DNA of 41,487 bases from an uncultured Flavobacteriales bacterium. Lineage in GTDB: Bacteria > Bacteroidota > Bacteroidia > Flavobacteriales > BACL11. Below, one piece after another: positions 23,332-26,604 of the stretch. Location: contig CAJQHO010000012.1 of the NCBI GenBank assembly GCA_905478185.1, forward strand, positions 1 through 41,487, given 5' to 3'. Both the position numbers and the translations under genes were made by a program. The notes under the pieces were generated by a model that ran no database searches, had not been told where the DNA came from, and saw only the letters and a program-made list of their open reading frames with translations. Each line of letters starts with the position of its first letter. Within the stretch, counting starts at the first letter, position 1.

Positions 23332-24765
23332 ATGACAGATAAAAAAACACCTTACTTTTTCGCACTTTTACCAATTATAGTCTTAGTTGCACTTTTAGCA
23401 TATAATGTATTCTTATATGGAGACAATTCTCTTGGGGGAGCAAATCAATTAGCTTTACTTTTTGCTGCAGCAACTGCATCAATAGTAGGAATAAAATTTG
23501 GATCCAAGTGGAAAACTATCTTAGATGGAATTAGCAAAAGTATTTCGAGTACTACTCCATCGTTAATAATTCTATTACTTATTGGAGCTTTAGCCGGTAC
23601 TTGGCTAATAAGTGGTATTGTTCCTGCTATGATTTTTTATGGTTTGCAAATCCTAAACCCTAAAACATTCCTATTTGCAACAGCAATAATTACAGCAATT
23701 GTAAGTTTAGCAACAGGAAGCTCTTGGAGTACAATAGCAACTATTGGTATTGCTCTTTTAGGTATAGGACAAGCACTTGGATTGCCAACAGGTTTGGTTG
23801 GTGGGGCAATTATTTCTGGCGCTTATTTTGGGGATAAAATGTCACCATTATCGGACACTACAAATTTAGCACCTGCAATGGCTGGTTCGGATTTATTTAC
23901 ACATATAAGATATATGATGTACACAACTATTCCTTCTTTTGCAATTACACTTATCATTTTTTTAGTAATTGGATTTACTTTTGAATCATCAGGAAATCAA
24001 GATATAAATATGCTCTTATCAGCTATTTCTAATTTATTCAACATAAGTGGGTGGCTCTTTTTAGTTCCAATTTTGGTAATTGCGCTTATCATTAAAAAAA
24101 CTCCAGCCATTCCAGCATTATTAGCAGGAACACTCTTAGGAGGCATCTTTGCTATTATCTTTCAGCCAGATGCTGTAATATCAATTACTAGTGCTGAATC
24201 ATTAACTTTTAGTTCGGCTTATATAGCAGTTATAAATGCTATGGGAAGTGAAATTTCTATCACAACTGAAAATGAAATGATTAACAATTTACTCTCAACA
24301 GGTGGTATGTACGGAATGCTTAATACGGTTTGGCTGATTATTTGCGCTATGATTTTTGGTGGAGCTATGGAGGCAACAGGACTTTTAAGAAGAGTTGCTG
24401 AGCCTATAATTAGTTATGCTCAGAGCACTGGGAGTTTGATTGCAACTACAGCAGGAACTTGTGTATTTTTCAACATCACAGCATCTGATCAGTATTTAGC
24501 AATTGTAGTTCCTGGAAGAATGTATGCTGATACTTATAAAGAGAAAGGTCTTGCTCCTGAGAACTTAAGTAGAACTTTGGAAGATGCAGGAACTGTTACT
24601 TCAGTTTTAGTTCCTTGGAATACTTGTGGAGCAACTCAATCAGCAGTTTTGGGTGTAGCAACCTTTGCTTATTTGCCTTTTTGTTTTTTCAATCTTATTT
24701 CTCCACTTATGACCATTGCTTATGGTTACCTGGGGATTAAGATTAAAAAGTTAGAAAATAAATAA
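23332..24765 (+). CDS. nhaC: Na+/H+ antiporter NhaC family
   Basis: Inner-membrane antiporter. The 477 residues contain about 11-12 hydrophobic helices. The conserved NhaC segments are ATGSSWSTIATIG (about residue 125), GDKMSPLSDTTNLA (about 168) and the late VLVPWNTCGA stretch with its Thr-Cys. Members exchange Na+/H+, and some exchange malate/lactate or other organic anions, so the substrate is inferred from the family only. A -7 box for the following gene begins right behind its stop codon. Confidence 0.9.
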   Translation: MTDKKTPYFFALLPIIVLVALLAYNVFLYGDNSLGGANQLALLFAAATASIVGIKFGSKWKTILDGISKSISSTTPSLIILLLIGALAGTWLISGIVPAMIFYGLQILNPKTFLFATAIITAIVSLATGSSWSTIATIGIALLGIGQALGLPTGLVGGAIISGAYFGDKMSPLSDTTNLAPAMAGSDLFTHIRYMMYTTIPSFAITLIIFLVIGFTFESSGNQDINMLLSAISNLFNISGWLFLVPILVIALIIKKTPAIPALLAGTLLGGIFAIIFQPDAVISITSAESLTFSSAYIAVINAMGSEISITTENEMINNLLSTGGMYGMLNTVWLIICAMIFGGAMEATGLLRRVAEPIISYAQSTGSLIATTAGTCVFFNITASDQYLAIVVPGRMYADTYKEKGLAPENLSRTLEDAGTVTSVLVPWNTCGATQSAVLGVATFAYLPFCFFNLISPLMTIAYGYLGIKIKKLENK

Positions 24766-24766
24766 C

Positions 24767-24774
24767 TATATTTG
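24767..24774 (+). promoter_or_regulatory. -7 promoter box for S51-like gene
   Basis: TATATTTG, a full TAnnTTTG match, begins one base after the nhaC stop codon. The ATC codon that opens the S51 reading frame lies four bases beyond the box. Confidence 0.5.
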
Positions 24775-24778
24775 AAGC

Positions 24779-26604
24779 ATCAAAAAGTTTCTTGTCTATG
24801 CATTTCTACTATCATCTATCCTCTCCTACTCTCAAGGGAGTTTAGTACTTATTGGAGGTGGTGGAGAAAGCAATGGAGGCTGGAGTGACGCTCCATACAC
24901 TTGGGGGCTTGACCAATCTCAAAACAAAAAAGTTGCAGTTATTTATTATAGCACTTCTACTTCATGGATTCCAGAATATTTTATGGATTTAGGTGCTTCT
25001 GATACTGCCAAATTTGACATTGACAATCTTACTTTAGCGAACTCCCAAGCTACTTACGATAGTTTAATGAACTATGATGTGTTTTTTATAAAAGGTGGCG
25101 ACCAATGGGATTATTACAACACTTGGAAGAACACTAAGGTTGAAGATGCTATTACCGATAAATTCAATCAAGGAGGTGTGATAATGGGAACTTCTGCTGG
25201 AATGGCAATTTTATCTAAACTGATATTTACAGCAGAAAACGGAAGTGTCTATCCTGATGATGCAATGACTGATGAAAATGACCCTGACATAACTTTAGTA
25301 GATGATTTCTTAAATATTTTTTCAGAATATATATTTGACACTCATTTTGTGGAAAGGGGAAGACTAGGAAGACTTATTCCTTTTTGTCTAAACACCTCAC
25401 TATCACCTTTTAATAATAGTCATTTTAAAAATGGATTGGGAGTTGATGATAGAACTGCTATATGTATTGATAGTAATAATATAGGTGAAGTAATGGGCTC
25501 AGCAGCAGTAACAATAATAGAAAGGATCTTTAGTCCATTAAATCAAGACCCAAGAATTTCACAGTTAATAAACAGACAAAAGTTTAACTTCAATACTTTC
25601 CAGGTAATTAGTGCTCCTGGGGCATATACAATCACACAACCCTCTCAAATATTTTATCAGAATTATAAAAACACACTATTTGTTTGTGGTAGTGATAGTC
25701 TTGAGCATTTTGATAATTTTATTATTGATTTGGATAGTTTTAGCGGTATCCCTCAAGAAAATATTTATATATATACATGCAATCCCAATAGAGCTTCACT
25801 CATAGAAAATAAAATCAATAACTTAGGAAACCCTAACACTTTTATTATTGATATAAATAATGGAGATTTACTTCCTAGTTCTGACTTTACAACTTCTAAC
25901 AAAATTCTTTTTTATGAGAATGATTGGAGTATTTTAAATGATTTTTTGAACAATACAGTAAATGGTAATATCCTTAAAATAAAATTAAGGGACAATGTAA
26001 CAATTACTGCCTTTGCTGGGCAAGATGCAAAGTTTGTAGGGACAACTTTTTGCTCTAACATTCATGATAATATTTATGGTGCATATTATGGTGAATTAGA
26101 ATTTGAAAAAGGATTAAACTTGATTAAAAGCTCAATATTTATGCCTAATACCTTTGATAAGTACACTAGTGACTATTACGAAAATACTCAATCAGCCGTA
26201 ACTTGGGCAATGGTAAAAGATACTTTGAAGTACGGTCTTTACTTACCTTATAATGGACACCTGAAAATAGCTCAGAATGCAGTATACAAAGTAGTTTACA
26301 TCAGAGGAGTAGCGCCAATTATATTAATGAATAATGAAACAAAAGTAAATACAACATCTTCAATGTTTACTCATCACAAAATTTTTTAAGGCAAGCAGTA
26401 AGTTTTAAAGAATTTTCATTAATTCGTTACTACTTAGCATGGGGAAGTACAACAACAGTTGGATTTGGAGAAACTACAAAAGAAAACGGAAAACTACAAA
26501 ACATCACAAATATATTAGGAGAAAAAACAAAAGCAACACCAAATACTCCTCTATTTTATAAATATGAAAATGGTAAAGTAGAAAAGAAAATAATTATTGA
26601 CTAA
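24779..26604 (+). pseudogene. Secreted peptidase S51/cyanophycinase-like gene, damaged at start and 3' end
   Basis: The gene encodes a Ser hydrolase of the S51/cyanophycinase class. Nucleophile Ser lies in GTSAG, followed by the DTHFVERGRLGRL signature. The frame begins at 24779 with ATC, then a clear signal peptide (KKFLVYAFLLSSILSYSQ) and the first strand SLVLIGGGGE. A stop (24773-24775) sits just upstream, and no ATG, GTG or TTG occurs in frame before 24983. Starting at 24983 would lose the signal and the first strand. Near the end, TAA at 26387 stops the frame right after six T (26382-26387). One added T continues into 72 more codons, ending at 26604 with ENGKVEKKIIID. It may be a decaying gene, a sequencing error at the T run, or a case of slippage. 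Confidence 0.7.

Follow-up and report, generated by a model that had tools for sequence, protein, structure and literature searches.

The window analyzed here is a stretch of 41,487 nucleotides that constitutes contig 12 of a flavobacterial draft genome (G000; 1.66 Mb in 66 contigs, 98.5% complete). On its forward strand, to which all feature coordinates below refer, a zero frame is open from 24776 to 26389 (536 codons, no internal stop). It is located between a putative antiporter-like gene (23332–24765) and a gene on the minus strand whose end lies at 26604. Residues 22–232 of the frame (24842–25474) match the Peptidase_S51 profile (PF03575) with an E-value of 6.5e-12 and a score of 46 bits, above the gathering cut-off of 23.9, and include the sequences GTSAG and FDTHFVERGR. 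The GTSAG nucleophile motif and the DxH residues are presumably catalytic; both are present in the window frame, are invariant across the 5 aligned sequences and, in the orthologue, align to CphB chains. The remainder of the zero frame (25475–26362) is homologous to the orthologues as far as the sequence NTTSS, and no family was found for it.

The nearest solved relatives, both by sequence (with the orthologue as the query) and by fold, are the CphB cyanophycinases (chains 3en0, 7uqw and 7uqv). However, the window protein remains below the cut-off of the cyanophycinase equivalog TIGR02069 (86.5 of 126.6 bits), its start and end are broken, and the intact orthologues carry about 350 more residues beyond the S51 domain. 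The structure model (mean pLDDT 55.4, pTM 0.54) is weak outside the S51 part, with residues 405–536 below 50; KaiC rows among the fold matches were treated as noise, and a second S51-like domain, suspected by eye in the C-terminal half, was dropped (hhalign probability 0.1, E 0.47). The cyanophycinase CphE bears a signal peptide. Named as an extracellular enzyme in PMC10206079, it resembles the gene studied here, by description, in being of the S51 type with a signal peptide. We predict that the product of the S51-like gene would be a secreted, cyanophycinase-like peptidase, with hydrolysis of cyanophycin predicted at most.

The preliminary description of this locus placed a signal peptide and the first beta-strand upstream of any usable start codon, and this is borne out: residues 1–19 of the zero frame (IKKFLVYAFLLSSILSYSQ; 24779–24835) are signal-peptide-like, with a helix at residues 2–14 of the structure model, and the first strand comes next. 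Likewise, the codon at the expected start is, as had been noted, ATC, with a stop one codon before it (TGA at 24773–24775, AGC, ATC at 24779–24781), and the earliest ATG, GTG or TTG of the frame is found at 24983. At the same position, ATG is present in the orthologue L020, from the same locus of the congener G004, and in a remnant of the gene in the sister genome G002; the start region reads TATATTTGAAGTATGAAAAAA in the orthologue (L003/L020) versus TATATTTGAAGCATCAAAAAG in the window. The longest conventional open reading frame, 468 codons from the ATG at 24983 to 26389, could in principle yield a shorter cytoplasmic protein, but this product would be missing the signal peptide and the first strand, along with the GGGxE stretch, the residues of which do not vary among the 5 aligned sequences. 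Homologues spanning the equivalent of 24983 to 26389, which the preliminary description had named as grounds for abandoning its reading, were not seen: none of the homologues seen starts at the equivalent of 24983, and they begin with ATG at the equivalent of 24779 and end at that of 26601. The likelihood that the 468-codon protein is made and useful is practically negligible.

A match to the Bacteroidetes −7 box TAnnTTTG (TATATTTG, 24767–24774) lies 4 nt before the start-codon position. Because this spacing corresponds to the 4 or 5 nt between the box and the transcription start given for F. johnsoniae in PMC6847099, the ancestor and the orthologue of the S51-like gene were probably leaderless, an arrangement that is seen here solely as promoter-box spacing. 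In a sample of 297,843 bases of G000 (the window and L022–L037), TAnnTTTG precedes the ATG of open reading frames of at least 100 codons by 4, 5 and 6 nt in 10, 5 and 4 cases, respectively, compared with about 2 cases per spacing at 10–39 nt. This enrichment at 4–6 nt (19 cases) suggests the presence of leaderless genes. Among flavobacteria with mapped starts, leaderless mRNAs are a minority, accounting for 5.5% in F. psychrophilum according to PMC9723704.

A start codon other than ATG appears to be used in this genus by infC, which was found in 13 of the 14 genomes (L038 at about 1447; L039–L050). The conserved start is ATC in 11 of the 13 and ATT in the other 2, it lies four codons past the preceding stop in 12, and ATG, GTG and TTG are absent from the first 16 codons examined in these 13 genomes. 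The infC gene of E. coli has AUU as its start codon and is under the control of IF3. Given infC, an ATC start codon is not impossible in the genus; for ATC initiation on a leaderless mRNA, this is one supporting fact, but nothing in it is specific to the S51-like gene, whose relatives use ATG.

The second lesion lies toward the 3′ end of the gene. As previously described, a T6 run (26382–26387) leads into a premature TAA of the zero frame (26387–26389), and the −1 frame from 26386 to its stop at 26602–26604 adds 72 codons. The displaced C-terminal stretch (26365–26604) is coding: its in-frame hexamer score is 0.588 (157 long open reading frames average 0.593, and the gene body scores 0.540), it is 57% identical to the end of the orthologue (E 8e-25), and when the stretch was shuffled 20,000 times, all 89 codons of the tail frame stayed free of stops in 2 cases. 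The break itself, which had been assigned to the T6 run, lies elsewhere. Both full-length orthologues contain TS[Y/F]V[H/Y]xSQNFLRQ (x, any residue) in one frame, whereas in the window NTTSS belongs to the zero frame, which can be followed up to 26362, and VYSSQNFLRQ to the tail frame, starting at 26365 (read from 26362, the tail frame gives N-V-Y-S-S-Q-N-F-L-R-Q). The nucleotide alignment contains a single-base gap within TCTTC-AATG, 17–23 bases upstream of the T run, so that, relative to the orthologues, one base appears to be missing at about 26359–26365, a loss that can be placed in this interval but not at an exact base. The alignment of the SQNFLRQ peptide and the position of the gap rule out T6 as the site of the frame change. 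Moreover, T6 carries no signal because there are 352 exact T6 runs in the sampled 297,843 bases, and L020 has the same T6 (AATTTTTTAAG) within an intact frame. By eye, the other indels that separate the window from the orthologues add up, region by region, to multiples of three. The alignment also raised the suspicion of a compensated frameshift at about 25366–25420, but this was rejected in favor of divergence, given that RLGRLIPF in the window resembles RLGRLLSF of the distant homologue L005. The case also illustrates that, if no homologue is available for comparison, a frame break can be assigned wrongly to the closest homopolymer.

These observations bear on the possibility, raised in the preliminary description, that the gene is live through recoding, in which ATC would start translation of a leaderless mRNA and −1 slippage on T6 would restore the tail. 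The 4-nt spacing of the promoter box fits a leaderless mRNA, infC provides a precedent for ATC, and slippage at the T run would bring the two frames back together. Such a slip, however, would take place downstream of the actual frame change and would produce MFTHHKIF where xVYSSQNF is conserved, at a run that is both common and tolerated in the intact frame of the orthologue; selection against A/T runs becomes evident at about nine in many genomes, as described in PMC1088944. With ATG in the orthologue and in a sister remnant, and with the gene being lost in the clade by deletion in both sister genomes, this reading is barely credible. Compared with the transcriptional slippage genes of the dnaX/mxiE type covered in PMC1088944, the S51-like gene likewise consists of an open frame followed by a tail in a different one, but has no long homopolymer at the frame change, and the arrangement is not conserved. 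Indeed, contrary to what is expected of programmed frameshifting or slippage, the change falls in TCTTC-AATG, with no slippery site, and the orthologues are in one frame. By analogy with infC, ATC at 24779 might still start some translation on a leaderless mRNA, leaving a down-tuned gene whose tail would be lost or rarely restored by slippage, but we consider this highly improbable.

The conserved end of the displaced stretch (GKLQNITNILGEKT...KYENGKVEKKIIID, 26488–26601) bears a likeness, as a resemblance only, to a type IX secretion sorting tail. Type IX cargo sorting tails of this kind include that of one other protein in the sample, which ends in LIKYVDVLGRTNNPSNTLLFYIYDDGTVEKRIVIE; the sorting-tail pattern matched 1 of 431 stop-to-stop open reading frames of the sample and accordingly says little. 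The TIGR04183 sorting-domain profile had no match in the window tail or the two orthologue tails, and the distant L005 scored 22.9 against a cut-off of 23. GldK is detected over its cut-off in the G000 genome; type IX export is a putative route for the S51-like protein. A limited search found no literature on a cyanophycinase together with type IX secretion. L005, from another family of the order (G049; 37% identity), has the same combination of S51 and a long C-terminal region, with a borderline type IX sorting domain, and is also encoded directly behind an antiporter-like gene.

The S51-like gene is accessory: it was found in 2 of the 14 genomes of the genus and, at E 1e-40, in 4 of 52 of the family. 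L020 consists of one frame of 619 codons, with 67% protein identity to the window over 535 columns, and a second full-length orthologue, from another genus, has 617 codons. Among the other 13 congeneric genomes, the locus was read in 7 (G001, G002, G004, G008, G009, G011 and G013), of which G004 alone has the gene. In two congeners without it (L080 and L082), the interval from the antiporter to the next gene contains ~300 bases of imperfect GCAAAAGACAATAAGATGA-type repeats. The window copy is the less similar one, with a pN of 0.217 to L020 versus 0.125 between L020 and the copy from the other genus, and from this pattern, the gene tree is apparently not the simple species tree. The dN/dS of the body against the orthologues is 0.107–0.111, with saturated dS (2.2–2.4), and may be taken as a sign of old constraint. 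Branch-wise counts gave 113 synonymous and 148 nonsynonymous changes on the window side against 76 and 58 on the L020 side (Fisher p 0.014) and, for the tail, 7 and 32 against 13 and 8 (p 0.0012). As proof of relaxed constraint, these counts were set aside, since synonymous sites are saturated and L019 is not a true outgroup.

The two genomes closest to G000 are G001 and G002, with 97–98% protein identity of a neighbour gene, compared with 64–70% in nine other congeners that have this neighbour; two further congeners gave just a distant paralogue of it. In both G001 and G002, the flanks are 91–96% identical to the window, and the S51-like gene is skipped: the alignment stops at 24769 and 24786 and resumes at 26575 and 26552, respectively. 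What remains in G001 is the last four or five codons, with IIID and the stop fused to the antiporter, which ends in KLENKIIID. G002 retains the start, ATG and eight or nine codons (MKKTFFILSL and a stop; ATG AAA AAA ACC TTC TTT ATT TTA TCA, then TTA and the stop), and the last fourteen codons (YENGKVEKKIVIV followed by the stop). The gene was therefore present in the common ancestor of the three genomes, and at least one lineage had ATG. Across 693 4-fold sites in four neighbour genes, 113 differ between G001 and G002, and 95 and 92 between G000 and these two. As G001 and G002 are no closer to each other than to G000, their losses look separate; the end points of the two deletions also differ. 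Three losses across the three genomes are thus the simplest interpretation, with two as the minimum. The 693-site comparison excluded the antiporter gene for its far greater divergence between the sisters (68, 49 and 61 of 190 4-fold sites), and this excess leads us to suspect recombination there.

Given the G000 branch of about 0.057 substitutions per 4-fold site, neutral decay over the whole branch would have brought about 90 substitutions and, by a rough estimate that assumes a mutation bias, about 4.2 stops in the 1581 bases before the lesion. None is seen (probability of none, 0.015), so the loss in G000 would be younger than the split from the sisters, or else an assembly error.

The window copy is very probably a pseudogene, inactivated recently, that once encoded a secreted, cyanophycinase-like protein of the Peptidase_S51 family; relative to intact orthologues, its start and frame have been lost, in a derived state that is not conserved. 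The assembly itself shows both lesions, and the intact orthologues and the sister deletions, with their remnants, are likewise seen directly. The ancestral gene would have begun with ATG at 24779, right behind the TAnnTTTG box, and run in one frame of about 610–620 codons to 26601. In G000, the start codon would have become ATC and one base would have been lost at about 26359–26365, removing the start of the signal peptide and putting the conserved C-terminal end out of frame. An intact secreted product would not be expected from such a gene, and the same gene was lost in both sister species through deletions with different end points.

Under the main rival explanation, the two lesions are artifacts of assembly or sequencing, and an undamaged gene is expressed, giving a secreted protein. 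Both are single-base changes, a kind that assemblies can get wrong, in a genome that is a draft of 66 contigs; furthermore, the normal coding scores of the body and the tail and the wholly open body are likewise expected of an intact gene with two errors, and the gene tree unlike a simple species tree is a further point against a pseudogene. This alternative, however, needs two errors within one gene, and a clade that is losing the gene, with deletions in both sisters, makes error less likely. A scan of the 297,843 bases of G000 for startless coding stretches left 16 of 57 candidates after shadowed ones were removed. Two of these are the two parts of the S51-like gene; of the other 14, 11 were checked by eye, and one real frame change was recognized, in dnaX, which recurs in three genomes. 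We therefore regard two errors as unlikely and infer that the lesions lie in the real genome and not in the assembly alone. The preliminary description had left the choice between a pseudogene and assembly errors open; its two independent lesions are supported, and the sister genomes favor the pseudogene.

The frame change in this putative dnaX, a gene named in part from its tail, is a side finding. In G000 (L025:12893–13597), G002 (L052) and G001 (L053), the first frame stops a short way past an A10 run (CTCAAAAAAAAAATCTAAAC in G000), and a tail of 235 codons, the tau-specific part, follows in the −1 frame. The other 9 congeners with an identified tail (L054–L062) all have A9 and a single frame of 581–607 codons; in G005 and G007, two of the 14 genomes, no tail was found. 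An exact A10 occurs once on the scanned strand in the 297,843 bases of G000. In the A10 clade, the longer dnaX product (tau) would depend on slippage, and A10 where the other congeners have A9 amounts to a natural swap that is more interesting than the S51-like gene. In T. thermophilus, gamma is made by slippage on A9 of dnaX, according to PMC1088944; a limited search found no literature on dnaX slippage in Flavobacteria.

On its own, the S51-like gene of the window would be a routine pseudogene, and its main value is that of a gene loss caught early. Among three close genomes, this one accessory gene carries two point lesions in the first, has an internal deletion in another and is almost entirely deleted in the third.
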